From Acinetobacter pittii (lineage in GTDB: Bacteria > Pseudomonadota > Gammaproteobacteria > Pseudomonadales > Moraxellaceae): a stretch of DNA of 64,000 nt. Position numbers and translations under genes: made by a program. Shown here one piece after another: positions 1-16,498 of this stretch. How positions within the stretch are numbered: the first letter of the stretch is position 1; every line of letters starts with the position of its first letter. The stretch spans positions 3,100,001 to 3,164,000 of the forward strand of contig NZ_CP139249.1 in NCBI RefSeq assembly GCF_034064985.1, given 5' to 3'. The notes beneath the pieces were generated by a model, which did no database searches, was not told the origin of the DNA, and saw only the letters and a list, made by a program, of their open reading frames with translations.

Positions 1-114
1 AGCAATATTTTGCATCTCTTGAGTCGTAAGATGGTCCGCATCTAGAACAACCCCTGCTCGATTTCCTGTATTTGGTTTAGTGGTAAATGCATCAACTACA
101 TAAATGGTCGTCAT
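1..114 (-). CDS. PhzF family isomerase/epimerase, N-terminal fragment
   Basis: Only the first 38 codons are in the window; the gene runs off the left edge. The ATG at 112-114 follows a strong AGAGGAG-type ribosome binding site. The visible peptide begins MTTIYVVDAFT and continues to a GNRAGVVLD stretch, which is the PhzF family N-terminus (usual form VDAFTxxPFxGNPAGVVL). Family members are diaminopimelate-epimerase-like enzymes named after phenazine biosynthesis; most, probably including this one, have unknown substrates. It is divergent from a LysR-type gene about 220 bp away, which may regulate it (inference). Confidence 0.8.
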   Translation of the reverse strand, partial: MTTIYVVDAFTTKPNTGNRAGVVLDADHLTTQEMQNIA

Positions 115-338
115 GGCAGAACTCCTCTGTTGTTAATATTGTGATCTCAGAAATAGCTCCTGCCATAACCAGAAAATCTTATTTAATTGCAGCAATGCAT
201 GTCGCAGCTCTAAAAGGTTTATAGTCGCCTCATATAATGAATTTTGATTCTTTGTAGTAGTTATTTGAATTGTATAAATCTAGACAGCGGGGATACTATA
301 GTTTTTATTGCAAACGCATTTTCTAAATATGGAAAGGT

Positions 339-1202
339 ATGAACTGGGACGATACTAAAATTTTGTTAGCTATTGGGCGAACTGGCGGATTAAGCCGCAG
401 TGCAAAATTGCTTGGTATTAGTGTTTCTACCGTACATCGCAGAGCTGTTGAACTAGAAAAAAGTCTCAATGCGATTCTTTTTTCTCGAGATAGTGATGGC
501 TATACACTCACCCACGTTGGAAAACATTTTTTTGCTTTGGCTGAAAAAGCAGAAGAGCATTTAATAGCGATGGAACGGTACAACGATCAAGGGCAACAAT
601 CATTGTTCCGCATTGCTTTACCTGAATTAATCGGACAACAGTTGCTTCAGTCAAAGCTAACAGCATTGCAACTGAAGCATCCAGATTTACAATTAGAAAT
701 CTCAACGAGTGTCGTTCCTGTTGATTTTTCCCGACGGGAAGCTGACATTATTCTCCGACTTGTTCGACCAGAAAGTGGGCGTTACATTATTCGGCGACTT
801 GGCCAACTGGAATATGGACTTTATGGTAGTAAGGATTATCTTGCCAGTTTCAAAGAGCATGCTGAAACGGCTGATGATTTACTGAATCATCGTATAATCG
901 GTTGGGACAGAAGCCTTCAATATACGTTCTTAGCACAATGGATGCGTGAACTCACCCAAGATACAGCCCCTGCTTTATCTTTTGATAACATGCACTCGCA
1001 ACTACGAGCAGTCATTGAAGGACAAGGAATTACAGCCCTGCCTTGTTTTGTTGCAAAGGCTTCGGGTTTAGTACCCAAACTACCTGAGCAAACTTTAAAA
1101 CAAGAGGTGTGGTTAATGCGTCATTTAGATACTAAGGATAGTGACTATTCAACGTTGATTAGCGAGACGATTGAAAAAGAACTACAAGAATATCTGTTGT
1201 AA
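339..1202 (+). CDS. LysR family transcriptional regulator
   Basis: 287 residues, the usual LysR length. The N-terminal winged helix-turn-helix covers about residues 1-60 (GGLSRSAKLLGISVSTVHRR), followed by a LysR effector-binding domain with the PELIGQQLL and QGITALPCFVA stretches typical of the fold. The start is supported by a GGAAAGG ribosome binding site just upstream. It is divergent from the truncated PhzF gene, a common arrangement for a LysR regulator and its target, so control of that gene is a reasonable inference. The inducer cannot be read from the sequence. Confidence 0.9.
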   Translation: MNWDDTKILLAIGRTGGLSRSAKLLGISVSTVHRRAVELEKSLNAILFSRDSDGYTLTHVGKHFFALAEKAEEHLIAMERYNDQGQQSLFRIALPELIGQQLLQSKLTALQLKHPDLQLEISTSVVPVDFSRREADIILRLVRPESGRYIIRRLGQLEYGLYGSKDYLASFKEHAETADDLLNHRIIGWDRSLQYTFLAQWMRELTQDTAPALSFDNMHSQLRAVIEGQGITALPCFVAKASGLVPKLPEQTLKQEVWLMRHLDTKDSDYSTLISETIEKELQEYLL

Positions 1203-1333
1203 TAAAAATTAGCTTTTATTTTAATTTTGAATTCGAAAAAGAAATTATATGCTAAACCGAGTTATGTCTCGCTCAAGTTGTACAGAGTGATTTGTAGTCA
1301 AAATAATTGGCGAGAACTATCAAATCTGCTCAT

Positions 1334-1361
1334 AAAAAATCCGACTTGCGTCAAAATCGGA
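1334..1361 (-). terminator. Rho-independent terminator downstream of the 1536-2207 gene
   Basis: On the minus strand TCCGA...TCGGA arms, with an inner TTG/CAA pairing, form a hairpin followed directly by six T. It sits in the 333-bp gap 1203-1535, which otherwise shows no gene, and is correctly oriented to end transcription of the membrane protein gene to its right. Confidence 0.65.
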
Positions 1362-1535
1362 ATTTTGCTTTCTTTATAGTAGATAAAAATTCTTAACACT
1401 ATGATTTTAATAATTTTTTAAATATGGTTTCAGGTAACGCCCATTATGTTAAATGAACCATTATTCATAATTTTATTAGCTTATTAAATCTAAATCCAAG
1501 TCACAAAATTACGATTATGCTTTCAGCTATTTCCG

Positions 1536-2207
1536 TTATGGAGTAGGAGATTTTTTATCTAAGTTTGAAATTATTCTATTCAATTCATTTTTTATATCTT
1601 CTGTTGAATTCTGAATAGATTTATATTTCTGCAAACAATTATTTCTTTTTGTCTGATCCGTAATAACAATGTTGCTAGGAATGTTACTGCAAAATAATAA
1701 ATCCGAATGCCAGTTGCTAAATTTTTCTAACTCCATTTCATGCTCTAATCTTTCAATATGCACAAGAACGGTATAACTTAATTTTGAACATTTAACCATG
1801 AGAGGTAATAACTCAGATGCGTTAAAATTTTTATATATTTCTGAAGAATAACTAGAATTTGAGTTTTGTTCTTTAAAAGATATTAGCTTAAAGTATTGAT
1901 TTAATTCTTTTAAACTTATATCTAACTCTAGGAGGTAGAGGTATGTAGCATTTGCAAATGAAAATGTATTTTCATATGTTCGCTGATCTTTCCAATTATC
2001 ATAGAAAAAGTATGCTGCTATCGGTGTAAAAAGAGTCGCGTTAAAAACAAGTAAATTTGTATATGCACCAATAAGTCCTGAATCTACTGCAATACCTAGT
2101 AATACATTGACTGCTATAAAAATTATCGTAGTAACAAATATAAGAGAGCTTAATATGACTATAAGTTTTCTAACTAGATTATTTAGTCTACTAATCTTGA
2201 TATTCAT
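1536..2207 (-). CDS. Hypothetical membrane protein with two N-terminal transmembrane segments
   Basis: 223 residues, not recognised as a named family. Residues about 13-35 and 43-65 are strongly hydrophobic and look like a transmembrane hairpin. The following 150 residues are polar, rich in Asn, Ser, Lys and Glu, and probably helical and cytoplasmic. The start has a good GGGAG ribosome binding site 5 bases before ATG. The gene stands alone between a terminator-like hairpin and two further hairpins and is more AT-rich than typical core genes, which hints at accessory origin. No function can be assigned. Confidence 0.7.
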   Translation of the reverse strand: MNIKISRLNNLVRKLIVILSSLIFVTTIIFIAVNVLLGIAVDSGLIGAYTNLLVFNATLFTPIAAYFFYDNWKDQRTYENTFSFANATYLYLLELDISLKELNQYFKLISFKEQNSNSSYSSEIYKNFNASELLPLMVKCSKLSYTVLVHIERLEHEMELEKFSNWHSDLLFCSNIPSNIVITDQTKRNNCLQKYKSIQNSTEDIKNELNRIISNLDKKSPTP

Positions 2208-2370
2208 ACAGACTCCCTAAATCGGATAAGCAAATAAAGAAATTATCAATTACACAGAATAATTCGATACGGTTCACATTGAAAAATTAAGATTTCCTAA
2301 AATTAACATAATACAGCTTATGTGAAAGGTATTTTTTATCTAATATAAATCATAGTTTTATTTTTTAACC

Positions 2371-2402
2371 AAAGCCCAACTCATAGTACTTGGGCTTTTT
2401 TA
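2371..2402 (+). terminator. Rho-independent terminator hairpin
   Basis: Perfect AAGCCCAA/TTGGGCTT arms with a 10-base loop are followed by a T run on the plus strand. It lies in the gene-free stretch 2208-2644. No plus-strand gene precedes it closely, so it may be a relic of a rearranged locus or act on antisense transcripts. Confidence 0.6.
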
Positions 2403-2579
2403 ATGATTTGTCACCTTTCACGATTACTTATTGATCAACTATCCACAATTTCATGTAATCTCTCTTAGCCTAAAACTGATAAATATCTAATCTAAATCCT
2501 TCATATTTCGTAAGAGTCACTAAACTTTTGAATTACTGAAATAGGAAATGACAACTTATGTATCACATTACGAACAGAA

Positions 2580-2615
2580 TAAAAAAAAGCCGCTTTACTA
2601 GAGTGGCTTTTTTAT
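2580..2615. terminator. Bidirectional terminator hairpin
   Basis: An A-run, AAAGCCGCT arm, short loop, AGTGGCTTT arm and T-run form a hairpin with one wobble pair. It is oriented to terminate the small membrane protein gene on the minus strand and could also work in the other direction. The rest of 2208-2644 shows no gene. Confidence 0.65.
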
Positions 2616-2644
2616 TTTTATACAAATAATATTTTAAAGAGAAA

Positions 2645-2914
2645 TTATTTAAATCTATAAATTTCAAAATTCAATCGATATGTCATAAAATTTATTAAGC
2701 ATGTTTCTCGAATTCTTTTTCTAAACAGTTCTTGAAAATAGGAATTTGTTAAAAAAACACCCAAGGCAAAAATTAAATATACGATAGGCTTATTTTCGAT
2801 CTGAAGTATCTTTAAAAGCTTAGAAAAGAACTCATCTACCAAATTAAAATAAGCTGAAGTTATTAAAAGAACAAAGAAAGAAAAGAAATATTTATAAAAA
2901 TACACTTTAAACAT
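2645..2914 (-). CDS. Small hypothetical membrane protein
   Basis: About 89 residues from an ATG preceded by GGAGAA; an upstream TTG would add 17 residues but has no comparable binding site. Two hydrophobic segments (around FFSFFVLLITSAYF and IVYLIFALGVFL) suggest a two-pass membrane protein. It is very AT-rich and not recognised. A chance reading frame cannot be excluded, but the ribosome binding site and the terminator just downstream favour a real gene. Confidence 0.45.
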   Translation of the reverse strand: MFKVYFYKYFFSFFVLLITSAYFNLVDEFFSKLLKILQIENKPIVYLIFALGVFLTNSYFQELFRKRIRETCLINFMTYRLNFEIYRFK

Positions 2915-3006
2915 AATAAATTCTCCAGCAACAATTAAAAAACCTACAATAAAAATATAACACAAAAAAATTAAACAGCAACAACATTTTAAACACTTTT
3001 TAAACC

Positions 3007-3080
3007 TTATTATTTATTATTTATTATTTATTATTTATTATTTATTATTTATTATTTATCACAAAAATAAATAATAAATA
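3007..3080. repeat. Heptanucleotide tandem repeat (TTATTAT)n with an inverted flank
   Basis: Positions 3007-3059 hold about 7.5 perfect copies of a 7-bp AT unit. Positions 3063-3080 carry the reverse complement of two units, so the array can also fold into hairpins. It lies between a small membrane gene and the 3' end of a TetR gene. It is a simple-sequence array prone to slippage and not a CRISPR. Confidence 0.95.
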
Positions 3081-3130
3081 CAAGTGGTTGAAAAATAATT
3101 AAAATTCACTAGTAATTGTGTTTATGTATA

Positions 3131-3736
3131 TTAACTTAAACTTATTTTCAAATAACCAAATACAGCTTTTTCAACTCGCTGCTGTAAATGATTTAAATCA
3201 CTTTCCCCTGCTATGCCTGCCGCGTTAATTATTCCTTTGCTTAAAGCAATCACATCTTGTGCGACTGTTTGTGCACCAGAAATATCTGAGCGTATAAACA
3301 GATCAGAAATTATGGTTTCAAGTTCATGTTGAAGCTCACTTTCCTCAATGTCTTTTCCAATAATTTCAGAAGCAAATTCTAAAGTTCGTGCCAACTGCGG
3401 ACGGCTCAATTGATGTTGCACAGCGGCTTGTATGACGCGTTTTAATTTTTCTTTTAAGTCTGCGGCATCGTGTTGCTGTATGGCTTCAACAATATGATTT
3501 GAAAGCTTGGCGCGCTCGCGTCGAACTAACTCAACAATTAAAGCATCTTTAGATGGAAAGTATTGATATAGGCTACCAATGCTTACACCAGCAAGTTCTG
3601 CCACGGCATTTGTATTAAATCCAGCAAAGCCTAAAGACTCTAAAATGCGAGCAGCCGCCTCTAAAATAGCTTCAAATGTAGCCACTGAGCGTGCTTGACG
3701 CGGGCGTTTGCGTGGGTCTGGAAGTGTTTCTGACAT
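3131..3736 (-). CDS. TetR/AcrR family transcriptional regulator
   Basis: 201 residues. The TetR_N helix-turn-helix is at about residues 17-63, with AVAELAGVSIGSLYQYFPSK as the recognition region, followed by an all-helical ligand-binding domain. It is divergent from the darcynin gene with a 121-bp intergenic region containing TGAGT/ACTCA inverted repeats. Autoregulation and control of the neighbour are therefore likely (inference). The ligand is unknown. Confidence 0.92.
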   Translation of the reverse strand: MSETLPDPRKRPRQARSVATFEAILEAAARILESLGFAGFNTNAVAELAGVSIGSLYQYFPSKDALIVELVRRERAKLSNHIVEAIQQHDAADLKEKLKRVIQAAVQHQLSRPQLARTLEFASEIIGKDIEESELQHELETIISDLFIRSDISGAQTVAQDVIALSKGIINAAGIAGESDLNHLQQRVEKAVFGYLKISLS

Positions 3737-3760
3737 GGCCCGAAATGCGAGTATTTAATG

Positions 3761-3790
3761 TGAGTAATCACTCATATACTGACTGAGTCA
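3761..3790. promoter_or_regulatory. Candidate TetR operator between the regulator and darcynin gene
   Basis: TGAGTAATCACTCA (3761-3774) has perfect 5-bp TGAGT/ACTCA arms, and a further GACTGAGTCA half-site cluster follows at 3781-3790. Related CTCAGTCAT bases recur near 3842, just before the darcynin ribosome binding site. Position and symmetry suit a TetR dimer site; binding is inferred. Confidence 0.5.
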
Positions 3791-3857
3791 TATTGATATG
3801 ACAAGTAAATGCTGTCTTTTTAGTTGAACTACAACTCGGCTCAGTCATGGAGTGGTT

Positions 3858-4187
3858 ATGTCTAGAACCTATACTTTTTTTATTCATTTAAGAGCTTTGC
3901 CTGCTTGGCTGGCTTTAGCTCGTGAAAAGCGTGCTGAGTTTAGTACACAGAAGCTTGAACCTATTTTTGAGAAGTACCCAACTGTAAAAGTCCGTTGGTA
4001 TGACGTTGAAGCTTTTAGCACTAAAGCGAGTGATATTGCTATGTTTGAAACGACATCTTTGCAAGATTATTATTTTGTGATTGATGCGATTCGAGACTCT
4101 GAGTTTTGTACAGTGCCCTACTTTGAGTTTGTAGACATTATTCCTGCAATTGAAGATGGGTATGTGGAGTATGAGAGTTCTTTATGA
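3858..4187 (+). CDS. Darcynin family protein
   Basis: 109 residues from the ATG at 3858, which has GGAG five bases upstream; the GTG at 3852 is a less likely start. The opening [19 protein letters not shown], and the ending [21 protein letters not shown], match my recollection of darcynin proteins, small single-domain proteins of unknown biochemical role described in Acinetobacter. It is probably controlled by the divergent TetR regulator. A 111-bp AT-rich gap separates it from the convergent deaminase gene and marks the left border of the defence island. Confidence 0.75.
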
Positions 4188-4298
4188 AATTTTTAAGTAA
4201 TATTGTTTTTATAAAAAAATTAAAAATACTGTTAAGGTAATTCAGATAAATTACCTTAACTAAAAATTTTATTTTTATTAAAAACTTACAGATAAAAC

Positions 4299-6095
4299 TT
4301 AACTTATACTTTGTAAATAACCTAGCTCATCTTTATAAGGCATAAGAGGTTCATATAACTGGTGATAAGCACGACCGACTGCACCTCTAAATTGAGTTAA
4401 GGTTGGCGGATTTACGCCAATAGCAAGAATATGGGTCATAGCAATTCCAGGATATGGATCAATATATACTATTTCTTTTATACCTAACTGATAGGCCTTT
4501 TTAGCACATAATTCACATGGACTTGCTGTCGTAAAAAGTTTTCCACCATTAATACCTATTCCACCATATTTAGCTAACTGTAAGAAGGCATTTTCTTCAG
4601 CATGTAATGATCTGGTATGAACTTGGTTCTTTTCCCCTTCCACTTTATTCTGAATAGATTTAAAGCAATAAGCTAAATTCCTACCATTGTTACCTATATC
4701 TTTTAATTTTATTAATTGTTTACCAGCTTCTTCTCTAAATTTTTCACTTGTTCGTTCATATAAACTGTAATCAGTTTCACTAGAGAATTCATCTAGCTCT
4801 TGCAAAGATCTTAAACCGCATGGGACTTGACCTTTAGCTACATCATTCCATCCAACAGCTTTAATAGAATAATCTTCATCCGTTACAACAGCACCAACTT
4901 GACGAGAAATACAGCCTGAATTCATTTTTGCGGTGTATGCAATTTGCATAACACGTTCTAATGAAGTTGGCGTTGTAAGCCCTGGATGTTTCATTAAGCT
5001 TATATACCAAGCTAATTGTGCTTTGAGCACATTATGGTTGGTCGGTTCATTTCTGGGATTAAAAATATGAATATCAGAAATTTCAATACAATGCTTAACA
5101 TTTGAAGTTATTAATTCATGATATTCATCTTTCGGCTCAGCTTTCTTTGAACCACAAGCGTCACACTTAGCTTCAGCTTCTTTAAGATCTTTTACCAACT
5201 CTCCCGATTCTTTCCTATCCATAAGTTCAATTTGATCAATTGTAAACTTAAATTTCTCTTGTAAATATTTTCGTCTATCGTCATTTGGTGCATTGATTGA
5301 AATAAGATAAAAGGCTGAGTACCTATCTTTAAAATACTTTGCTTCATAAGGGTTACGAATAGCATCAATAACAATATAAGTTTTTTCCCTAACTTTTTTA
5401 TCAACCCATCGATAATATTTAATAATTTTATTAATCATTCCTGGTAAAACGTGAAGTCCTCCCAGATTAAAATCTGCAGTACCTGGATTTGGTATAACTC
5501 TACCAGTACGTCGTATTGAGTCTCCAGCCGCTTGATAGATCTCAACATAACTATTTCTAAGAGTCTTTTTAAATATATCTTTGATTTCCTCTGTAAATGT
5601 TTTTACAAGGATCAACCATTCTTCATATGAACTTTCATCTTTAATTAATTCAGAATCTTCTTTCAAAAAATAATCATTGGCTGGTAATGTTTTTATCTTT
5701 TCGTGCAATTCTAAAAAGCGCGAAGCCTCTAAAACTCCTTCAATTTGATTTTCTAGATCTTTACTTACAATACTTTTGATGAAATTAGCAAAAGTTTCAG
5801 CTTCTGTATTAAGCAATTGAGCACTAATTAATTCACTAACTTTAAGCAACCGAAAAGGTGTATGATTAGCGCTAGCATAATTACGAAGAATAGAATATCT
5901 TTTTTTATCTAATCCACTAAAGTAATTTTCTTTATTATAGTTAACTTCATAATCTTGAGGAAAACTAATTTCGTCTTTACTTGCTAATATTTTGGCTGTT
6001 GTAGAGCAACCAGAACCTGTTCTTCCCGTCAAACCAATAACAATAAAATTATCTCGCTCACTTAGTAAACTTGATATTAATGTATCATTACCCAT
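4299..6095 (-). CDS. avcD: AvcD-type anti-phage dCTP/dCMP deaminase
   Basis: 598 residues with a two-part design. The N-terminus carries a P-loop (GLTGRTGSGCSTT, about residues 21-33) in a nucleotide-kinase-like domain. The C-terminus is a zinc cytidine/deoxycytidylate deaminase with HAEEN at about residue 498 and PCELC at 526-530, the His and two Cys zinc ligands and catalytic Glu. This matches the AvcD family, which deaminates dC nucleotides during infection and starves phage of dNTPs. An additional C-x2-C (C311, C314) in the linker may bind another metal. In known AvcID systems an upstream RNA, AvcI, restrains the enzyme; here a 181-bp non-annotated gap precedes the gene. The very AT-rich coding sequence and nuclease neighbours support acquisition as part of a defence island. 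Confidence 0.88.
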   Translation of the reverse strand: MGNDTLISSLLSERDNFIVIGLTGRTGSGCSTTAKILASKDEISFPQDYEVNYNKENYFSGLDKKRYSILRNYASANHTPFRLLKVSELISAQLLNTEAETFANFIKSIVSKDLENQIEGVLEASRFLELHEKIKTLPANDYFLKEDSELIKDESSYEEWLILVKTFTEEIKDIFKKTLRNSYVEIYQAAGDSIRRTGRVIPNPGTADFNLGGLHVLPGMINKIIKYYRWVDKKVREKTYIVIDAIRNPYEAKYFKDRYSAFYLISINAPNDDRRKYLQEKFKFTIDQIELMDRKESGELVKDLKEAEAKCDACGSKKAEPKDEYHELITSNVKHCIEISDIHIFNPRNEPTNHNVLKAQLAWYISLMKHPGLTTPTSLERVMQIAYTAKMNSGCISRQVGAVVTDEDYSIKAVGWNDVAKGQVPCGLRSLQELDEFSSETDYSLYERTSEKFREEAGKQLIKLKDIGNNGRNLAYCFKSIQNKVEGEKNQVHTRSLHAEENAFLQLAKYGGIGINGGKLFTTASPCELCAKKAYQLGIKEIVYIDPYPGIAMTHILAIGVNPPTLTQFRGAVGRAYHQLYEPLMPYKDELGYLQSIS

Positions 6096-6276
6096 CTTTT
6101 AAACTCCATTTTAAATATTTTTATGTAAAATTAATAAGATCATATCTTGCTGACAAAATAAATTTATTTGACCATCTAGTTAATTGATCATCTTCCATAC
6201 ATTTTACAGATGAAATACTAAATAATAAACTGATAAATAAAATATTATTACAACCAAAGTATAATATTTTATAAAA
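6096..6276 (-). other. Leader region of avcD; candidate place for an AvcI-like RNA or a small frame
   Basis: 181 bp between the HNH stop codon and the deaminase start, on the same strand. In characterised AvcID systems the inhibitory RNA is encoded next to the 5' end of avcD, so this is the natural place to look. The sequence contains AT-rich inverted segments but no strong hairpin obvious by eye. It also holds an unusually long open frame that continues in phase with the HNH gene after its TAA. RNA gene status is inference only. Confidence 0.3.
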
Positions 6277-7146
6277 TTACTTATATCCTTTAGAGTAACA
6301 ATACTGTTTAAAAGCCATACCTTCACATAACTCTAACTTCAGTACATTCTCATAATGATTAAAACCTAATCGTATCCTTTCAAGATCTATAGTTGTTTTA
6401 GAACACTCTAATGCATCATTAAGAGACAATTTAGTTAAACTACCAATAATTGAGTTCTCAAACTCAGAAATTATTTCGTTTGATTTATTATTAAATCTTT
6501 CTATCAACTTAAGGTTAGTATAATGATTTTCAATTATATTAAATAATATAGAATCTATTCCATTTTTATTTTTCAAATAAAATTTTACATCAAAAGTAAA
6601 GCTGTTATATTTAATATCAACAAATAAGAATTGTTGAATTGGCAATATATGTAAATATAAATTTAAGAATTCAAAACCACCATGTTTTATCCACTTATCT
6701 GACTTAAAACTATTACATTGGGAGCAAACAGGAATTAAATTTTTAGGATGGACAACAAATTCAGGAAAACTCTCCTTTGGTATAATATGATCCAAAGTGT
6801 TTACATCATTAATAGTACAATATTGACAAGTATTAAGCTCACGATTATTAGGTAGAGAAATTATAGCATTCTTTAAATTTACAAAAGGCTTTGAACTATA
6901 ATTATATAACTTTAATAAATCTTCTTTTTCATGTGGATCAATATTAGGTATAGCAGATAAATTATATAATTTATTCTCAATAAAAGCTGCATCATATATT
7001 TGATATGACCTTTCCAAAAAAGGAACTAATAATTTAATACGATCTTTATAATAAGGTACACTTTCATTCCTACCCTTTTTTTTAGACTTAATTACTAGTT
7101 CTAAGAAAGATATACTAGAATTTTTATATACATTTAAATTAATCAT
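6277..7146 (-). CDS. HNH endonuclease, component of a three-gene defence operon
   Basis: 289 residues. A treble-clef HNH core is clear: CQYC (C107, C110), LDHIIPKE with the catalytic D119-H120, then NLIPVCSQCNSFKSDKW with C141, C144. The pattern CxxC-DH-P-N-CxxCN-K is like PtuB of Septu and other phage-defence HNH nucleases. The N-terminal 100 residues are helical and charged; the C-terminal third has no recognised domain. It starts 8 nt inside the end of the ATPase gene, showing translational coupling. It probably serves as the DNA- or RNA-cleaving effector (inference). Confidence 0.85.
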   Translation of the reverse strand: MINLNVYKNSSISFLELVIKSKKKGRNESVPYYKDRIKLLVPFLERSYQIYDAAFIENKLYNLSAIPNIDPHEKEDLLKLYNYSSKPFVNLKNAIISLPNNRELNTCQYCTINDVNTLDHIIPKESFPEFVVHPKNLIPVCSQCNSFKSDKWIKHGGFEFLNLYLHILPIQQFLFVDIKYNSFTFDVKFYLKNKNGIDSILFNIIENHYTNLKLIERFNNKSNEIISEFENSIIGSLTKLSLNDALECSKTTIDLERIRLGFNHYENVLKLELCEGMAFKQYCYSKGYK

Positions 7147-8095
7147 AACGATTAGCTACCATACTCTTTAATAAAACAGTAAGATTTAAGCTAAGAGGCA
7201 CATCTTTTGATTGTAAAATTTCAATTATTTGATCGAAAGAGTACCCTTTATTTATTAGCAACTGTAACTCTTTCTTAAATTGAGAGGGTGTTTCTCGGGC
7301 TCCAAAAATATCTTCTGTTATTTTCGTTAGATTTTCTCCAAAAGTCTCTATAGCAGGATGTTTTGCACTTAAAACGTTATTTTCATTTCTAATAACATAT
7401 ACATTTTTAGATAAAATTCCTTGGACAATAATAGGTGAATGTGTAGCTATGATACAAAAGGATTGAAATTTTTTTACAAGAAGATGAATACTATTAATTA
7501 ATTGTGAAATAGCATTCGGGTGAAGATGGGTCTCCGGCTCATCAAATATGATCAGAGAGTCATATCTGATATTTGCTAATATCTCAGTAAGAATATATAT
7601 AAATATTGCTTGACCAGAGCTAAAAGTTTTTAGAGTTTTATTAAACTCAACTATATTGAGTCTACCTTCAAAAACTTCTTTATCCCACTCTATCCAACTT
7701 TCCACAAAGTCTTTGGAAAAAAAAGTTTCACATATTTCACACCAACTTTGAAATCTTTTACTACGTTGTACTTTCTGTATAGATGAGAAGAAGCGATTAT
7801 TTAACTCACTTTCAGATAAAATAGATTCTTTTTGATTGCTTTTTTGACGAAGTCCACAGTAAACATAATTAATTTTAGAAGAGTTTTCAGGAATAATAAA
7901 TTTATCAAACACACTGTATGATACAGCTATCACTTTACTAAAAATAGGAATTTTGGGTGAAAATAAATCTGTATTAGATTTTGCTATATCGACTGGAAGT
8001 TTAGATACTAATTGAGTTTTACCAACTCCATTTTTACCAATAAGAGTATATATTCTACTGGGAACAATAGAATTATCATCAAAGTTAAATGGCAC
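7139..8095 (-). CDS. ABC/OLD-type AAA ATPase of a three-gene defence operon
   Basis: 318 residues. Walker A is LIGKNGVGKT (about 18-27), an ABC-signature-like FSSGQ is at 158-162, Walker B LIIFDEPETHLHP at 181-193 and the switch motif ATHSP around 217-221. This is the AAA_21/OLD-like ABC ATPase group used in Septu, retron Eco7 and similar systems; no TOPRIM nuclease domain is present. The start is GTG with GAAGG seven bases upstream. The protein begins only about 17 residues before the P-loop, and the upstream frame stays open for some 15 codons without another start. It is 20 bp from the AbiJ-like gene and overlaps the HNH gene. Confidence 0.87.
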   Translation of the reverse strand: MPFNFDDNSIVPSRIYTLIGKNGVGKTQLVSKLPVDIAKSNTDLFSPKIPIFSKVIAVSYSVFDKFIIPENSSKINYVYCGLRQKSNQKESILSESELNNRFFSSIQKVQRSKRFQSWCEICETFFSKDFVESWIEWDKEVFEGRLNIVEFNKTLKTFSSGQAIFIYILTEILANIRYDSLIIFDEPETHLHPNAISQLINSIHLLVKKFQSFCIIATHSPIIVQGILSKNVYVIRNENNVLSAKHPAIETFGENLTKITEDIFGARETPSQFKKELQLLINKGYSFDQIIEILQSKDVPLSLNLTVLLKSMVANRYD

Positions 8096-8115
8096 TCTTA
8101 AGCCTTCACTATCTT

Positions 8116-9063
8116 CTATATAACTAGGTTTAAAAAATAATCAAAAGAATAAAGATTACTTAAATCATAGTTATCAATACGATATTTTGCTTGTCTTAAT
8201 AACTGTTCTTGCTCATCATACCGTATAATACTATTTTTAAAATCTGTATTATCTTCAAATTCTTCAGAAATCTGAGGAAAAAAGGCAATATCATTTAGAG
8301 CTTTCAATACTGATAAATAATTTTGTTCAAATATATTTTTTAAATTTTGATAAAAACTAAAACTTTGTCCTAATGAACAATATTCACTATCCAGCATAAA
8401 AAAATTAGTAACTATTTCTTTTGTTGTACTTTTAGAGTTTTTTGAAATTATTTTTAACTTCCCAATTACCCAATGCTGATTATTAGAGTAGTAATAAAGT
8501 ACAAATTCATTCTTTTTCCCATAATCATCCCATGTGGTTGGTGAGAGGATAAAAAAAGTATCATATTGACTGCTATGATTATTTACAATAAAAGGAATTT
8601 TATTATCAACAATATCTTTAAATTTATTATTTTTATCTAGAATGTCAATTTCAAAAATTGACAACCCCTCATTATTGATATTTTTTAGGCGGTATTCAAT
8701 CGATGAATTATTTAATATCGGATTTAAAGTATGATAGAAAAACTTAATTTCATCTTCGCTATCATTAACAGTAGGAGAAATAACTAGATTAAGAAGTTTA
8801 AAGAAATTTTCGTCAGAACTGATAAAATTAAATCTATCAATCAAGATATACTCAAGTTCCCAATCAGAATTGTTTACATAGTGTTGATTTAAGTCACCCC
8901 TAGCATCACTGTATCTTGAATCAGTTGATGGTAAGCTTCTTAAATCTAAAATTAAATCGAAGAAACTTACCTCATCAATTTTCTGAAATAATTTTCCTTC
9001 TTGTTTAGCAAGAATTTTCAAAATTTCTAATTTTATATTTTTTGGCAGTTGTAAGTTTAACAT
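8116..9063 (-). CDS. AbiJ-NTD3-like protein, first gene of the defence operon
   Basis: 315 residues. Residues about 34-100 contain LRSLPSTDSRYSDARGDLNQH followed by VNNSDWELEYILIDRFNF, which fits my recollection of the AbiJ N-terminal domain 3 pattern (LPSTDSRF-DA-GDI-QH-NNDDW-D-RF). That domain occurs in abortive-infection and other conflict proteins. The C-terminal 200 residues are rich in Asn, Phe and Tyr and not recognised. As first gene in a coupled ATPase/HNH operon it may be the sensor or the specificity component (inference). An unrelated accessory protein is the alternative. Confidence 0.72.
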   Translation of the reverse strand: MLNLQLPKNIKLEILKILAKQEGKLFQKIDEVSFFDLILDLRSLPSTDSRYSDARGDLNQHYVNNSDWELEYILIDRFNFISSDENFFKLLNLVISPTVNDSEDEIKFFYHTLNPILNNSSIEYRLKNINNEGLSIFEIDILDKNNKFKDIVDNKIPFIVNNHSSQYDTFFILSPTTWDDYGKKNEFVLYYYSNNQHWVIGKLKIISKNSKSTTKEIVTNFFMLDSEYCSLGQSFSFYQNLKNIFEQNYLSVLKALNDIAFFPQISEEFEDNTDFKNSIIRYDEQEQLLRQAKYRIDNYDLSNLYSFDYFLNLVI

Positions 9064-9288
9064 CGCTTTTTAAAAGAAAAAATTTTTACTATTATTTCAA
9101 TAAAGTATAGCAATATCAATATTTTCTTATAAATCTCAAATGATAAGTAGATGTCGAAGTAAAAATAAAAACTTATTTTTTGTTTGGTATATTTTTACCT
9201 TATAAGAACTATATGTTAATTTGATTGTGTGCAATTATAAAGCTAAACCATTGTTTTATTATAAACTATATGAAACTTGAGTAATAAT

Positions 9289-10248
9289 ATGGCCGAGTCT
9301 TTTCAATACCCACCAGAACTATTCAAACTACTTGTGGATACAATCCCTCTACTCTGCAAAAGTAAAAGAGATGTAATCTTATTTTTTCGGGGTGCCGGAG
9401 TAATACAGTCAGATCTTATACACGTTGAAACAGCTCTTAGAACAGATCAAGCATCAATTAATAAATTTGAAATTGCACGTGATGTTTTAACAAAAGTGAA
9501 TATACGTGGTGACAATGGACTTGCTGTTCGTCGTGAAATTCTTAAACGTGTTGTTGAGTTTGAAAGCTTTGAAACATGTTGGGAAAATGATCAGTTCAAA
9601 GCTAAAGGATTAGTATCAAGTATACGCGAAGTTGTAAATAAAAAAGACTCATTTACTCGGATGAAACAGGAAAGAGATCTTGAGCATCAACAAAATCTTG
9701 CTAAACGAGAACTTGAACGCAATCAAATATTAAAAAAACAGAAAAGTCTTGAAGAAATAAGTCAAAGATTAAACACTTTATTTACTATGGATGATAAACC
9801 ACATGAACGCGGTAAATTATTGGAAAGTATTTTAAATGATTTATTTCGTACATACGATATTCACATTCATGAGGATTTTAGACGTAGAGATCCTGAAACG
9901 GGAGTAGTAGTTGAGCAAATTGATGGTGTAATAGAACTTAATGGCCAATTACATCTGGTTGAAATGAAATGGCTTAAATCTCCAGTTGGAGTTCCAGAGT
10001 TTACCCAACATATAGGGAGACTTTTCTTTCGTGCAAATGCTCATGGAATTTTAATAGCAACTAATGGTTATACTGAGGCTGTAATTTCTCAATGTAGAGA
10101 TGCTCTTAGCCAAAAAACCTTATTTCTTTGCTCTCTTCAAGAAATAGTAATGCTCTTATATCGTCAAGATGATCTAGTAGAATTTTTGAAAAAAAAGTCA
10201 CGAGCAGCTATTCTCGATAAAAATCCTTTCTTAGAAATCTTATCTTAA
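9289..10248 (+). CDS. Mrr-type restriction endonuclease-like protein with N-terminal effector-associated-like domain
   Basis: About 319 residues from the ATG at 9289 (GAG seven bases upstream); a TTG at 9277 would add four residues. Residues 1-115 (ELFKLLVDTIPLLCKSKRDV, FFRGAGV) resemble effector-associated adaptor domains. A charged, probably coiled-coil segment (QERDLEHQQNLAKRELERN) links to a PD-(D/E)xK fold with GKLLESILNDLF, then QIDGVIE and HLVEMKW giving the D-ExK active site, and ILIATNGYTEAVI as in Mrr_cat. It is likely a modified-DNA-specific or abortive nuclease. It is divergent from the three-gene operon across 225 bp, which must hold both promoters. Confidence 0.8.
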   Translation: MAESFQYPPELFKLLVDTIPLLCKSKRDVILFFRGAGVIQSDLIHVETALRTDQASINKFEIARDVLTKVNIRGDNGLAVRREILKRVVEFESFETCWENDQFKAKGLVSSIREVVNKKDSFTRMKQERDLEHQQNLAKRELERNQILKKQKSLEEISQRLNTLFTMDDKPHERGKLLESILNDLFRTYDIHIHEDFRRRDPETGVVVEQIDGVIELNGQLHLVEMKWLKSPVGVPEFTQHIGRLFFRANAHGILIATNGYTEAVISQCRDALSQKTLFLCSLQEIVMLLYRQDDLVEFLKKKSRAAILDKNPFLEILS

Positions 10249-10366
10249 AAGGATTAAAGTTTAAAAATAGAAATTAATACTTTTCATGATTACTCAAATC
10301 CAATTTATCTTCTTTCAACTTTCCTAACTTTATAAGACTTTCCGCAAAATATAGAGTTAAAGTTAA

Positions 10367-10930
10367 CTAAATAACTTTAACTCTATTCCCCCAAAACCTC
10401 TCTAACACCACATCCCGTTCATCCACACGATTAGAGCTTAAAACCTGTAGCATCAAGCCATCAATTAAGTTTAAAACCATGTTGGCATCGGGTTTGAGTT
10501 TGTTGGTTTCCAGACAAAAGACCAAATCAAAAATTTCTTTCAGTAACCATTTTCGATATTCAACTGCCATGCGGTAAGCCCGTGGATAAAGCAGTTTTAA
10601 TTCAAAAATAGCTTTAAACAAAAGATGGTAAAGGCTATTCACATCGACATGTAAGCAAACAATTTCTTTAAGTTTATCGGCTGCGGTTGGGTAGCGGTGT
10701 GAATAAACAATTGCCAGAACTTCTTCTTTGAGTCGACTTTTTTGAAAGATTAGGCACATTTCAACAAGCCGTTCTTTTGAGTGAAAGTAATTATAAAACG
10801 TCGCTTTTTGAATTTTGGATTTTTTGATAATCAAGTCTACGCCTGCATTATGAAATCCATGTGTGGTAAAGAGTTGGATGGCGGTTTGAACCACCTGTAA
10901 TTTTTTGGAAGATATTTCTAAAGTTGGCAT
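10367..10930 (-). CDS. TetR family transcriptional regulator
   Basis: 187 residues from the ATG at 10930. The upstream 35 codons of the open frame run through a terminator hairpin and do not look like TetR sequence. The DNA-binding domain starts at SSKKLQVVQTAIQLFTTHGF, with the recognition region around SKIQKATFYNYFHSKERLVE. The C-terminal domain is all-helical and unassigned. It lies at the right border of the defence island, convergent with the Mrr-type gene. Its target is not evident. Confidence 0.85.
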   Translation of the reverse strand: MPTLEISSKKLQVVQTAIQLFTTHGFHNAGVDLIIKKSKIQKATFYNYFHSKERLVEMCLIFQKSRLKEEVLAIVYSHRYPTAADKLKEIVCLHVDVNSLYHLLFKAIFELKLLYPRAYRMAVEYRKWLLKEIFDLVFCLETNKLKPDANMVLNLIDGLMLQVLSSNRVDERDVVLERFWGNRVKVI

Positions 10931-10970
10931 AATTTTACCGTTATAAATTCTTGTTGTTTCTAAATGAGAT

Positions 10971-11009
10971 AAAAAGCCTGTGCCCTTTCTGGGAGAAAAA
11001 AAGGCACAG
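10971..11009 (-). terminator. Terminator or attenuator hairpin upstream of the TetR gene
   Basis: On the minus strand perfect CTGTGCC/GGCACAG arms with inner TTT/AAA pairing are followed by GCTTTTT. It lies just upstream of the TetR start, so it would either end a transcript arriving from the right or attenuate the TetR transcript. Confidence 0.55.
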
Positions 11010-11035
11010 CAAAGCCGTAAGACGGTGCTTGGCAC

Positions 11036-11613
11036 ATCTCAAGTTTTATTGTTGATATGAGTTTTTAGCCGTAATGACTTAAGGTCTGAAAAGCGGTTAA
11101 GCCTTCAAACTGTTTAAAGATGAATTAAGTGGTATCGTTATAGCTTTTGGCGCTCAAGGCCAAGAAATGATGGATGTGCATAGCCAACTCCTGATTTTGG
11201 GAGTTCTGCCAAAGCATTCATTTGGAATTATGGTGGCAGAACGAAAGAGGGTTAGCAGACTGGCTTCGAGAACCCAGCACACCCGAAGGTGTCCCCCTTC
11301 CGTCCTACCGCTACAAAAAGGGAGACGAGTGGGTCTACATCAAAAAAACGTGTTTTTTCAATGTCCTCAAAGAACGGTCTGCTAAAACCGACTGGCAATG
11401 TGGCCAGCACGCAAAGCATAATCTGAGAATTTAGAGGTGTCAATGTAGCTTTTATGCCAAGTATTTAAATTTCTTATTGTTTTTCATTAGATTAACTTAA
11501 TTATTATTTTAGATATTATATTTAATTGTATTTTTAAATTAAGTGAAGCAATCCATGCTTATTTATTTCTATCTTTTAACTTTTAAGATGAGACAACAAA
11601 ACGGAAAGTGGGA
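11036..11613. other. Gene-free stretch with a GC-rich islet and inverted repeats, possible element remnant
   Basis: 578 bp without a convincing gene. Positions about 11140-11440 are clearly GC-richer than their surroundings and contain nested inverted repeats: AACTCC/GGAGTT near 11184-11206 and GTTCTGCC/GGCAGAAC near 11206-11242. Overlapping short frames here encode peptides with EGVPLPSYRYKKGDEW and RRCPPSVLPLQKGRR in different phases, reminiscent of the small Icd-like/Ash-type frames of P4-like satellites and prophages. The flanks 11041-11140 and 11440-11613 are plain AT-rich sequence. A relic of a mobile element is the most likely reading, at low confidence. Confidence 0.35.
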
Positions 11614-12105
11614 TTAGACAATCTCGGTCTGCCCCACTTGGTGATAAGCACGGTTAAAATAAACCAAACTTTGGTCATGTTGGCTTTGTTTAATCGCCAC
11701 AATCGGACATATAAAAATCGTGTGTGTACCGACTTGTTGAATTTGCTCAATCTCACAATCAAAACTCACCAAAGCATCGTCTAACACAGGTGAACCCGTT
11801 TCTAACTCAATCCATGCGCCATGTTTAAAGCGCTCTTCTGGTGTGAGTTTAGATGAAAATGCTTTTGAAATATGTTCGTGGTGTGCACCTAAAACGTTCA
11901 CCGTTAAAATTTTATTATCTAGGAAATGTGCATGTGAACTCGCAGATTGGTTCATACACACCAATAATGTCGGAGGTGTGTCAGTCACACTACAAACAGC
12001 AGAGGCAGTAAATCCAAAACGGCCAGACATGCCTGCCGTGGTCACAACACTAACCGCACTTGTGAGTAAAGACATTGCATTTCTAAAGTCTGTTGCTTGA
12101 ACCAT
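11614..12105 (-). CDS. Flavin reductase family protein
   Basis: 163 residues, the typical length of the short-chain flavin reductase (HpaC/RutF-like) family. FRNAMSLLTSAVSVVTTAG, FTASAVCSVTDTPPTLLVC and the later VLDDALVSFDCEIE segment are family features for FMN binding. Such enzymes pass NAD(P)H electrons to free flavin used by a partner monooxygenase. The gene lies downstream of mesX and mesD on the same strand, so it may supply reduced flavin to MesX (inference from neighbourhood). The start has an AGGAAT ribosome binding site. A gap of about 185 bp from mesD contains inverted repeats. Confidence 0.85.
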   Translation of the reverse strand: MVQATDFRNAMSLLTSAVSVVTTAGMSGRFGFTASAVCSVTDTPPTLLVCMNQSASSHAHFLDNKILTVNVLGAHHEHISKAFSSKLTPEERFKHGAWIELETGSPVLDDALVSFDCEIEQIQQVGTHTIFICPIVAIKQSQHDQSLVYFNRAYHQVGQTEIV

Positions 12106-12230
12106 GACATTATTCCTAAATTGAACCGTACCTTGTCCTGTGTGTTTGCTATACCGCCCAACTCCATCAGGAAGGTACTATCGACATGCGATCTGATTAG
12201 AGCGACATGTAGTAAGTAAAATGAGGGTTA

Positions 12231-12271
12231 CTTGTTTGATTATCAACTGCCATCAAAAAAGTAACCCTTTA
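12231..12271. terminator. Inverted repeat downstream of mesD
   Basis: AGGGTTACTT and AAGTAACCCT arms about 25 bases apart lie between the mesD stop and the flavin reductase gene. There is no long T run immediately after the stem on the minus strand, so a partial terminator or mRNA-stabilising hairpin is as likely as a full terminator. Confidence 0.4.
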
Positions 12272-12290
12272 TACCACTTATTGGTAAATA

Positions 12291-13334
12291 TTAAGCAGTA
12301 AGATCATAACCCGTCAGTTCTCGGCGAACGATTTCTGCACCTGCACTTAAAGCATTTAACTTGCCACGTGCCACTTCACGAGAAAGAGGCGCCATACCGC
12401 AGTTTGTGCAAGGGTAAAGCTTGTCAGAGTCTACAAACTGAAGCGCTTTACGAAGTGTATTGGCAACTTCTTCTGGTGTTTCGATCTGGTTAGATGCCAC
12501 ATCAATTGCACCGACCATCACTTTTTTACCACGAATGAGTTCGAGTAAATCGATAGGCACATGTGAGTTGTGACATTCTAACGAGATGATATCAATGTTA
12601 GATTTTTGCAGTTTCGGGAAAGCTTCTTCGTACTGGCGCCATTCTGAACCGAGTGTCTTTTTCCAGTCAGTGTTGGCTTTAATGCCGTAACCGTAGCAAA
12701 TGTGCACCGCAGTTTCACATTTTAGACCTTCAATTGCACGCTCTAAAGTCGCGATACCCCAGTCATTTACTTCGTCAAAGAATACGTTAAATGCAGGTTC
12801 GTCAAACTGAATAATGTCTACACCAGCAGCTTCTAACTCACGCGCTTCTTGGTTCAAGATTTTTGCAAATTCCCAAGCCAGTTTTTCACGGCTCTTGTAG
12901 TGACCATCGTAAAGCGTATCAATCATAGTCATTGGGCCAGGTAATGCCCATTTAATTGGTTGATTGGTTTGCTGACGTAAAAACTTCGCATCTTCAACAA
13001 ACACAGGCTTTTGACGAGACACCGCACCAACTACAGACGGTACGCTTGCATCGTAACGGTCACGAATACGAACTGTTTCGCGCTTCTCAAAATCTACGCC
13101 ATTTAAGTGTTCAATAAACGTGGTCACAAAGTGTTGGCGGGTTTGTTCGCCATCGCTCACAATGTCGATGCCAGCAAGTTGTTGTTCGTGCAATGCCAAA
13201 CGTAACGCGTCTTTTTTACCTTCAACTAAGCCTTCGTTTTCAAGTTTCCAAGGCGACCAAAGCTTTTCAGGTTCTGCAAGCCAAGACGGTTTTGGTAAGC
13301 TGCCAGCAGTTGAAGTTGGTAATAATTTTTTCAT
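12291..13334 (-). CDS. mesD: MesD-type core methionine synthase (MetE C-terminal-like)
   Basis: About 347 residues from the ATG at 13334; the frame could begin two codons earlier at TTG. The protein corresponds only to the catalytic C-terminal half of MetE. It has the MetE-like opening STAGSLPKP, IQFDEPAFN, HICYGYG and the C-terminal CTNCGMAPLSREVA, giving the His, Cys, Glu and Cys zinc-site pattern. Core enzymes of this kind are folate-independent methionine synthases. Pairing with a DUF1852 gene identifies the MesD family, which in Acinetobacter baylyi needs MesX and oxygen. Homocysteine is the methyl acceptor; the physiological methyl donor is not settled to my knowledge. It is the second gene of a mesX-mesD operon with a 21-bp gap. 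Confidence 0.85.
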   Translation of the reverse strand: MKKLLPTSTAGSLPKPSWLAEPEKLWSPWKLENEGLVEGKKDALRLALHEQQLAGIDIVSDGEQTRQHFVTTFIEHLNGVDFEKRETVRIRDRYDASVPSVVGAVSRQKPVFVEDAKFLRQQTNQPIKWALPGPMTMIDTLYDGHYKSREKLAWEFAKILNQEARELEAAGVDIIQFDEPAFNVFFDEVNDWGIATLERAIEGLKCETAVHICYGYGIKANTDWKKTLGSEWRQYEEAFPKLQKSNIDIISLECHNSHVPIDLLELIRGKKVMVGAIDVASNQIETPEEVANTLRKALQFVDSDKLYPCTNCGMAPLSREVARGKLNALSAGAEIVRRELTGYDLTA

Positions 13335-13355
13335 GATCAATGACCCGTATGTTGA

Positions 13356-14342
13356 TTAATTAGGAGCGTAATTAGCAGACCACTGCTCAAGAATCGCTTG
13401 GTATGGTTTGATAAATTGCTCTTCAACAAACTTCCCCTGCTCAATAGCCAAACGGCTACGTTCTTCACGGTCATACACAATTCGAGTAAGTGAATAATCT
13501 TCGTGTTTCAAACTTGGTTGATAAGATTTTCCAGCCACTGAGTTTGCGTTGTAAATTTCAGGACGGTAAATCTTTTGGAATGTTTCCATCGTACTAATGG
13601 TACTGATCAACTCAAGGTTGGTGTAATCACTCAACAAATCGCCTGTAAAATAGAACGCTAACGGCGCAACGCTATTTGGCGGCATGAAATAGCGAACTTT
13701 TAAGCCCATTTTTTGGAAATATTCATCAGTGAGTGAATAGTCTTCTTGCTTGTATTCAACACCTAAAACTGGATGTTCGTTTTCAGTACGGTGGTACTCT
13801 TTCGTGGTCGAAACGCTTAAGCAAATCACAGGCGCCTTTTTAAAATTGGCTTTGTAAGTTTCAGAGTTAATAAAGCTCTTAAACAAGTTGCCGTGCAATT
13901 CACCAAACTTTTCTGGCGTGCTAAAAGTCGACTTGTTTTTGTTGTGATCTAACAACAGCACACTAAAGTCATAGTCACGTACATAAGACGAGAAGTTGTT
14001 GCCTACAATACCTTCGATGCGTTCATTGGTTTTCTTATCAACAATATTGGTTTTCAATATTTCGATGAGAGGAAGCCCGCTAGTACGATTTTCGGCATCA
14101 ATATTCATTTCAACTGAAATGATTTCAAGTTCAACGCCATAGCGGTCGCCTTTAGGGTTGTCCCAATGAGCTAAGGCATTGAAACGATTGTCGATCATCT
14201 GCAATGTATTGCGCAAATTTTCTTCGCGGCTCATCCCTCTTGCCAAGTTAGCAAAGTTGGTTGTAATACGTGTATTGTCTGCTGGACGATAGTTCTCATC
14301 GAAACAAATACTCTTAATCGTAAATGTAAATTCTTTACTCAT
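13356..14342 (-). CDS. mesX: MesX (DUF1852) partner of MesD
   Basis: 328 residues of DUF1852 type: the opening SKEFTFTIKSICFDENYRPAD and GVEYKQEDYSLTDEYFQKMG are characteristic. In published genetics of folate-independent methionine synthases, MesX is required together with MesD and oxygen. A flavin reductase gene downstream fits a flavin-dependent oxygenase role (inference). The ribosome binding site is AGGGT. The gene is first in the operon and follows a 368-bp leader with a perfect 10-bp inverted repeat that could be the operator. Confidence 0.82.
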   Translation of the reverse strand: MSKEFTFTIKSICFDENYRPADNTRITTNFANLARGMSREENLRNTLQMIDNRFNALAHWDNPKGDRYGVELEIISVEMNIDAENRTSGLPLIEILKTNIVDKKTNERIEGIVGNNFSSYVRDYDFSVLLLDHNKNKSTFSTPEKFGELHGNLFKSFINSETYKANFKKAPVICLSVSTTKEYHRTENEHPVLGVEYKQEDYSLTDEYFQKMGLKVRYFMPPNSVAPLAFYFTGDLLSDYTNLELISTISTMETFQKIYRPEIYNANSVAGKSYQPSLKHEDYSLTRIVYDREERSRLAIEQGKFVEEQFIKPYQAILEQWSANYAPN

Positions 14343-14710
14343 TGTGATCAGTACCCTAATTTCTGAGATAAAACCTAAATAAAAACTTTTTGCTCTTTTT
14401 AAACTTTCCAGACTTGTCAGTTTTGCGCCTTATGGTCTTATCAAAGTGAATTACTGGAGCGCTTCAGAGCATGAATAGATTTATACCGCAATCAAAACAT
14501 GAATAAAAATGATTTAGTCTCATTCAAAACTGAGCAAAATTCATGTTTAAGGTTTAATAAATAAGTATGAAGTTAAATATTTTTCATCTTTGGGAATTTT
14601 AGACAGCAGAAATTCAATATACGGCGCTCACACTGCACCTTAATAATTTTAAATATTAACTATTACTTTCAAATACTTAATAAGAAAAATTTAAGTTAAA
14701 AAGAATCAAC
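14343..14710. promoter_or_regulatory. mesX upstream region with inverted repeat AAACATGAAT / ATTCATGTTT
   Basis: 368 bp without a gene. Perfect 10-bp arms occur at 14495-14504 and 14539-14548, and a related ATGAATA is at 14471. The TGAA/TTCA cores recall the MetR consensus TGAA-N5-TTCA, although spacing differs. The region must contain the mesX promoter, as the LysR gene to its right is transcribed towards it. Regulation is inferred. Confidence 0.45.
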
Positions 14711-15583
14711 CTAAAGTAATGGGTGCTGACTCTCATTCATCTCTGCTTTTAGCCATTCTAAAAATATGGTTTTACGTGAATCTTCCTCAAAAGCGCTATG
14801 AGAAAGTAAAAAATAGGCTGAACCATCTTGCACAACAGGTGAAATTTTTTTCAGTAAGTTCCACTCTAGCTCTTTTTCAATCATATAAATTGAGATGACC
14901 GTCGCGCCGAGTCCCGCCAAACAACCTTCTAAACATAGATAAAAATGTTCGAGTTCAACTTTGGCATAGCCTTTTAAACTCTGCTTTAACTCAGCAATGC
15001 GACTCATGCTTTTGAAAAAATTTGGTCTAGAAGTCGAAATGAGTAAGTCGTTTGTTTCCGATGGCTTGATTGCTTGAACTAGAGCGATATATTCATCGGC
15101 AATCTTTTCGCTATAAATATGCTCTCCCCAATCAAAGTCATTTCTGCGAATCGCGATATCAATATTATCTTTTTCAAAATCGACCACGCCGCCTGCTGTG
15201 AGTAGCACAACCTCAAAATCATGACCGAGCTTTTTAAATTTTGATAACCGAGGAATGAGCCATTTCATGGAAAGAGTTGGTTCACACGACAAAACTAGTT
15301 GTTTATTGTGGGTTTTAGGCTGGCTGAGTTCTATTAAACATTCATCGAGTTGACCAAAAACTTGATGGCAACAACCCAATAAAATTTCACCCTGCTCGGT
15401 CATCACAAGTGTTTTATTTTTTCGATCAAACAAAGTCGTATTTAAAGCTTCTTCTAAATTATAAATCTGTTTACTGACCGCACTTTGCGTCACAAATAAT
15501 TTCTTTGCAGCTAAAGTGACGCTGCCATACTTCGCCACAAAATAGAAAAATTTTAGTGAATTCAGCGATATTCTCTCAATCAT
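14711..15583 (-). CDS. LysR family transcriptional regulator
   Basis: 290 residues. The N-terminal helix-turn-helix is at about 1-62 (GSVTLAAKKLFVTQSAVSKQ), followed by a substrate-binding domain of GcvA/ArgP-like size. It is divergent from a LysE-type exporter 255 bp away, the classical lysR/lysE arrangement, and upstream in the same direction as mesX-mesD. It could control either; the exporter is the more usual partner. Confidence 0.9.
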   Translation of the reverse strand: MIERISLNSLKFFYFVAKYGSVTLAAKKLFVTQSAVSKQIYNLEEALNTTLFDRKNKTLVMTEQGEILLGCCHQVFGQLDECLIELSQPKTHNKQLVLSCEPTLSMKWLIPRLSKFKKLGHDFEVVLLTAGGVVDFEKDNIDIAIRRNDFDWGEHIYSEKIADEYIALVQAIKPSETNDLLISTSRPNFFKSMSRIAELKQSLKGYAKVELEHFYLCLEGCLAGLGATVISIYMIEKELEWNLLKKISPVVQDGSAYFLLSHSAFEEDSRKTIFLEWLKAEMNESQHPLL

Positions 15584-15838
15584 TCCAAAAACTCATAGAT
15601 ATATAGTCGTTTTTATCGATTTTTATTTTTATATTTCTGTTCAAAATAAAAATCATCTTTATTAAACCCCATTTTAGATGATGAAAAACATATTGAATAT
15701 CGATATCTATCTTCCGAAATGTAAAGCCCCAATCTTTCTCACGAAAAGAATAACTGCTTTAAGCAAAACAGTTTTCCTCTCAAATACATTCCAAAAAGTA
15801 CAGATTAATTACCTCGTTTTCAATGAGGGTGCAAGATA

Positions 15839-16447: not shown

Positions 16448-16459
16448 AGACATTTGTTT

Positions 16460-16498
16460 GCTAAAGCGATAATAAATACAGAGCATCGCTTTAGCTTA
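16460..16498 (+). terminator. Rho-independent terminator of the LysE gene
   Basis: Perfect 11-bp GCTAAAGCGAT/ATCGCTTTAGC arms with a 14-base loop are followed by a T-rich tail, 12 bases after the stop codon. Confidence 0.75.

Follow-up and report, generated by a model that had tools for sequence, protein, structure and literature searches.

Septu systems pair an ABC ATPase, PtuA, with an HNH nuclease, PtuB, and PtuAB proteins also serve as the effectors of the retrons Eco7 (Ec78) and Ec83. According to two reports, the cleavage target is tRNA-Tyr for both Septu EcB88 and retron Eco7, and nicked DNA for another Septu cited there, while neither PtuA alone nor PtuB alone stopped growth in the case of Eco7 (PMC13096335, PMC11555353). 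Proteins in which AbiJ-NTD3 is fused to an ABC ATPase were listed as early as 2013 (Anantharaman et al., PMC3710099), and PADLOC includes an unpublished candidate, PDC-M01, 41 calls of which were removed as Septu duplicates in a further study (PMC11811056). Here, we examine a locus of Acinetobacter pittii that lies within a stretch of 64,000 nucleotides (assembly GCF_034064985.1, contig NZ_CP139249.1, positions 3,100,001 to 3,164,000; hereafter the window), and for which a first-pass annotation had proposed an undescribed three-gene defence system. Our analysis indicates that the locus is very probably one broken two-gene Septu-type system, namely a member of PDC-M01 headed by an AbiJ_NTD3 domain, in which a one-nucleotide frame break has divided the first gene.

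The locus comprises three open reading frames (ORFs) on the minus strand, ORF1 (8116-9063), ORF2 (7139-8095) and ORF3 (6277-7146), with a 20-nucleotide gap between the first two and an 8-nucleotide overlap between the last two, exactly as the first-pass annotation had placed them. ORF1 starts with ATG and encodes 315 amino acids (aa), of which residues 6-139 (8647-9048, minus strand) form the AbiJ_NTD3 domain recognised in that annotation; the Pfam match to PF18860 reaches 94.5 bits (E 6e-27) and clears the gathering score of 32.5 bits. A connecting region follows (ORF1 residues 171-309; 8137-8553, minus strand), which aligns with positions 20-162 of the PADLOC PtuA profile PDLC00282 at 6.4e-19 and is strand-rich and then helical in the predicted structure of an intact relative. 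ORF2 encodes 318 aa from an internal GTG, matches AAA_15/AAA_21 in Pfam, and carries all of the ATPase motifs claimed earlier: the Walker A sequence GKNGVGKT with K26 (8015-8038, minus strand), the Walker B region DEPETHLHP (7517-7543, minus strand), FSSGQ and ATHSP. The corresponding residues of the intact A. gerneri protein, G342, N344, G345, G347, K348 and T349 in Walker A, and E508, P509, E510 and H512-P515 in the Walker B region, are invariant among 30 aligned sequences. ORF3 begins with ATG and encodes an intact PtuB-like HNH protein of 289 aa, whose HNH core (residues 107-150; 6697-6828, minus strand) matches Pfam PF01844 at 5.3e-07 and includes H120, invariant in 16 aligned sequences, ORF3 among them. 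The Pfam profile matches of the three ORFs are far above chance, and together with the PADLOC matches they bear out the proposal of an ABC/OLD-type ATPase and an HNH protein in an operon of defence character.

In spite of this layout, ORF1 and ORF2 are, as sequence comparison indicates, the N-terminal and C-terminal halves of a single PDC-M01A gene of about 640 codons. The PADLOC profile PDLC04240, which has 639 positions, is covered from 35 to 313 by ORF1 and from 327 to 638 by ORF2, whereas an intact protein from a Tenacibaculum plasmid spans positions 1-639. In the genome itself (3.89 Mb in 2 contigs, scored 100% complete), ORF2 has a single strong match, the three further and weak matches being other ATPases. 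In a search across the genus, ORF2 matched at E≤1e-20 in 9 of 175 genomes, and the open frame around the match is 521-648 codons long in the 8 other genomes (at 63-81% identity in three and 28-35% in five), as against 333 codons here. Gene A is a single ORF in A. gerneri (640 codons), A. lwoffii (637), Psychrobacter glacincola (647) and the genome G064 (640); in the first three, ORF1 and ORF2 were checked and both match the one ORF, and in G064 they are united in one ORF according to the DNA alignment. With the A. gerneri protein as query, a database search limited to proteins of 0.55-1.75 times its length gave 365 homologues at E≤1e-10 from the 7999 best candidates, and among the 120 listed, 115 have at least 600 aa and five have 376-528 aa. 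Both ORF1 and ORF2 match all 121 A-type proteins, the sole non-match of the 122 proteins being an HNH protein (P0007), and an intact A. baumannii protein (638 aa), which represents 134 sequences, has identities of 90.6% and 96.5% with the two halves, respectively.

The divided gene resolves at a short T-run. The frame break (8131-8137, minus strand) consists of a T-run at 8132-8137 inside the heptamer T TTT TTA, at which homology in the ORF1 frame stops and the ORF2 frame takes over, so that the final few codons of ORF1, past the break, are off-frame. A DNA alignment with A. gerneri, A. lwoffii, Psychrobacter, L007 and a Proteus gene (L016) places a one-nucleotide indel in this run between the window and all five relatives; gene A has no other frame-changing difference from the first four, and the Proteus gene alone carries one more. 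Reading back from its GTG, the ORF2 frame stays open for another 15 codons, as far as 8140; this extension shows homology to the intact protein and is nearly identical in residues to the A. baumannii protein from residue 310 onward. The GTG itself is an internal, unconserved codon, the same position reading ATT, ATT, ATA, ATA and TTA in the five relatives. Mapped onto the model predicted for the intact A. gerneri protein (mean pLDDT 83.5), the break separates strands 307-311 and 321-325, the first pair of the ATPase sheet, and residue 1 of E. coli PtuA aligns (VIA) with A. gerneri residue 304, inside ORF1. The opening part of the ATPase domain is thus missing from ORF2, which, judging by this model, is not a complete ATPase by itself.

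Since the two frames of gene A differ by one nucleotide and relatives have a single frame, the locus is read as a broken PDC-M01 member. The claim of a short ATPase lacking extra domains, next to a separate first gene, thus proves to be an artefact of the frame break inside one PDC-M01A gene, and the three-gene reading is rejected on the split profile match, the longer open frames of the other genomes, the DNA alignment and the matching of both halves to every A-type protein. The first-pass annotation had itself named, as the result that would speak against its proposal, an assignment of all three proteins to a system already named; this is what the profile search returns, all three falling within the candidate PDC-M01.

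The suggested link to PtuAB, on the other hand, is sustained by both profiles and models. ORF3 matches the PDC-M01B profile PDLC04266 along its whole length (6.7e-58), PADLOC profiles for PtuA and PtuB also match the proteins of the locus, and an ORF similar to ORF3 follows gene A in 14 of 15 loci examined. A PtuA-type ABC ATPase fold is present in the model, where the top Foldseek matches come from PtuA complexes, and the ORF3 model matches PtuB (VIA). Several observations weigh against the identification as a broken Septu-type pair. Foldseek alone gives no match for ORF3 at E≤0.001, PtuB being found by VIA only; the A profile matches solved PtuA chains weakly (E 1e-4 to 6e-3); Foldseek TM-scores to PtuA are low (0.20-0.42); and UvrA and ABC transporter heads score within one Z unit of PtuA (VIA), so that the ATPase fold alone cannot separate PtuA from other ABC ATPases. 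Direct sequence comparison of ORF3 with solved structures gave no match at E≤1, and its profile gave weak ones, the best at 0.012. Apart from the break, the two halves have uninterrupted frames and good conservation, and the break is therefore either recent or tolerated; a -1 slippery heptamer is present at that very point; and a plausible ribosome-binding site, GAAGG, stands seven nucleotides upstream of the ORF2 GTG.

The last of these points would suit a true three-protein system, with an adaptive split and the products of the three ORFs working as individual subunits, as would the openness of both halves. Against such an arrangement, the GTG is unconserved, the split does not coincide with a domain border, given that it separates two strands of one sheet and that the PtuA fold already begins in ORF1, and none of 12 homologues found with ORF1 as query (184-528 aa) ends at the split, the short ones stopping elsewhere; we regard it as extremely improbable. 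The remaining explanations, namely sequencing error, slippage and switching, bear only on why the gene is broken or on what follows from this, and are compatible with the identification as a broken two-gene system. Homopolymer runs are common sites of sequencing errors, and the position of the break in a T-run, as the sole frame-changing difference from four relatives, is what would be seen if a miscalled homopolymer had disrupted, in the assembly, a gene A that is actually intact in the strain. Two assembly checks, both blind to the outer tenth of each gene, argue against this. Over 164 kb, none of 168 ORFs of relatives was split (199 ORFs of at least 150 aa from two relatives, 31 of them dropped at coverage or identity limits, and many genes counted twice), and over 364 kb compared with one relative, there was one clear frame break among 235 orthologues with 381 homopolymers of at least 6 (271 ORFs of at least 120 aa, 36 dropped; a second flag was an unmatched N-terminus only). 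An error-rich assembly is thus unsupported, a single error at this site is rather unlikely, and true mutation is the likelier source of the break.

The break might also be put to use. T TTT TTA is a known type of slippery heptamer, which stands here in the correct phase (zero frame TTT TTA; -1 frame TTT TTT AAA) and leads into the conserved frame, and productive -1 frameshifting at U UUU UUA would supply some full-length A protein beside a truncated AbiJ_NTD3 half. The heptamer is, however, found at this place in none of the five aligned relatives, which makes it at most a property of one allele, and folding of the surrounding RNA is unremarkable (z -1.47, with 16 of 200 shuffles folding as well); on these two grounds an ancestral programmed frameshift is rejected, and productive slippage in the present allele is quite unlikely. 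Phase variation, in which slippage in A/T-runs turns family members on and off, draws on the recurrence of breaks at different homopolymers: the T-run of the window, A. baumannii P0131 (198 aa), whose sequence changes past residue 170, the site of a T-run in the window gene (nucleotides 507-513, residues 169-171), and the A-run of Proteus mirabilis L016/P0133, the length of which varies between Proteus records. Yet gene A has a G+C content of about 27% and 11 A or T runs of at least 6, and ordinary loss-of-function indels would therefore often land in runs anyway; the Proteus records with another run length (L029, L102), moreover, have further frame breaks and may be error-rich. Such switching appears highly improbable, and it is very doubtful more generally that the break is a working control element, through -1 slippage or population-level homopolymer change, setting the amount of full-length AbiJ_NTD3-PtuA protein; were it one, the recurrent breaks in A. 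baumannii and Proteus mirabilis would represent on/off switching of a costly Septu-like system.

Interrupted A proteins occur in several relatives. In A. baumannii, besides P0131, there is P0128 (294 aa, 16 sequences); P0129, of 184 aa, shares 181 of 184 residues with ORF1; and A. defluvii has an interrupted protein of 376 aa (P0045). In Proteus mirabilis (L016:5029-6968), a break at an A-run leaves gene A as two ORFs of 421 and 243 codons, and P0133 (421 aa, a cluster of 106) agrees with the first part of this split gene in 420 of 421 residues. These interrupted relatives, together with the 11 A/T runs, fit repeated loss of a costly gene, with homopolymer switching as the weaker alternative.

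Gene A of the two-gene system encodes an AbiJ_NTD3 domain, the connecting region and a PtuA-like ABC ATPase, and gene B a PtuB-like HNH nuclease. If the intact relatives work as PtuAB is reported to do, an oligomer of the ATPase would hold and gate the nuclease, infection may be sensed or relayed by AbiJ_NTD3 or by the part that follows it, and release of the nuclease could lead to DNA or tRNA cleavage and hence to aborted infection. This strain probably makes no complete A protein in quantity, in consequence of which the HNH protein would be without its partner and the system off or nearly so. The single-protein result for Eco7 would fit the persistence of an unpartnered HNH gene next to a disrupted gene A.

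The locus lies in a variable interval (4190-10387, no strand assigned) between conserved flanks, which, going by its gene content, is a probable defence hotspot, with differing systems in some related species. When 15 related stretches were compared with window positions 1-16500, none had a DNA match to 4205-10380 (E≤1e-5), whereas both flanks (3150-4190, and from 10387) were kept in 13 of the 15, with 1.3-6.8 kb of other DNA between them. Some interval content is common, one protein reaching 97.7-98.9% identity in the pairs L091/L099 and L092/L095. A scan of ten interval proteins from 6 of the 13 stretches identified Gabija (L093), pAgo with a partner (L098), PDC-M60 (L057), an nSTAND3 protein (L096) and a Sel1-repeat protein (L091), and recognised nothing in L064 or for the third L093 protein. 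The interval of the window further includes an anti-phage dCTP deaminase of 598 aa (4299-6095, minus strand; NF041025, 416.6 bits against 400; PADLOC dCTPase, 1.5e-145) and a restriction-endonuclease-like (REase-like) gene (9277-10248, plus strand), which matches Mrr_cat at 20.2 bits, under the Pfam cut-off of 21, has weak PADLOC matches only, and in its N-terminal part has no match in the Pfam and PADLOC scans. Beside the hotspot lies a C4 antisense RNA (11229-11315, minus strand; RF01695, 65.1 bits), the only match at gathering score in an Rfam scan of window positions 1-16000; C4 is an immunity RNA of P1/P4-type phages.

The locus is a disrupted member of an already known system type, and the analysis strikes out what had falsely looked like a new three-gene system, while illustrating that a frame break of one nucleotide can give the appearance of a sensor, a short ATPase and a nuclease in one operon. 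It also ties PDC-M01 structurally to PtuAB, as far as models allow, and places it at an Acinetobacter chromosome site occupied by other defence systems in related species. The leads of value are the hotspot, the possible slippage and the intact AbiJ_NTD3-PtuA relatives, in which the contribution of AbiJ_NTD3 to a PtuA-like ATPase could suitably be tested.

Relatives of the pair are found in other settings. In the lambda-like phage HK630 (L104:2435-4899), an ATPase, called Ea59 in another HK630 record, and the HNH gene behind it match PDC-M01A and PDC-M01B (8e-202 and 5.8e-113), a phage-borne Septu-like pair, and records of lambda itself also match. In three Bacteroidota loci (L022:3655-9292, L024:3351-9307, L025:3629-9263), hsdS and hsdM of a type I restriction-modification operon directly flank the A and HNH pair, and on a Tenacibaculum plasmid (L103:3841-8345) the pair is placed after hsdS. 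In the A proteins of L019, L021, L022 and L024 (about 690 aa), AbiJ_NTD3 is replaced by roughly 200-250 N-terminal residues that have no Pfam match.

Compared with the described systems, the locus is set apart from AbiJ by the lack of a HEPN domain, the RNase criterion, in Pfam searches of ORF1, ORF2 and an intact relative, and by its ABC ATPase partner. It has the ATPase and HNH folds in common with the PtuAB effectors of Eco7 (Ec78) and Ec83, but the genes on either side (P0004, P0005) lack a reverse transcriptase domain by Pfam, on which the reading as a retron type I-A effector is rejected; nor does the Rfam scan of window positions 1-16000, with C4 as its sole match, show an msr-msd RNA. 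The HK630 Ea59-HNH pair shows 29.6% identity over A. gerneri residues 173-638, yet Ea59, of 525 aa, is phage-borne and lacks the first ~170 residues, which hold AbiJ_NTD3. The AbiJ-NTD3-ABC ATPase fusion (PMC3710099) has the same architecture as the intact relatives of ORF1 and ORF2, although the part of that paper available to us mentions no partner HNH gene for it. Like Septu, the locus has an ABC ATPase of PtuA-like fold followed by an HNH protein of PtuB-like fold; it differs in that its A protein has about 300 extra residues, including AbiJ_NTD3, before the E. coli PtuA fold, and in that its B protein has 289 aa, against 205-258 aa in the matched chains, at 11-16% identity. The closest counterpart is PDC-M01, to which both proteins correspond in A-then-B order with a few-nucleotide overlap, and of which the best A profile of the intact relatives, PDLC04240, includes the AbiJ_NTD3 part; the difference is that the A gene of the window lies in two frames, so that it matches this profile in two pieces.
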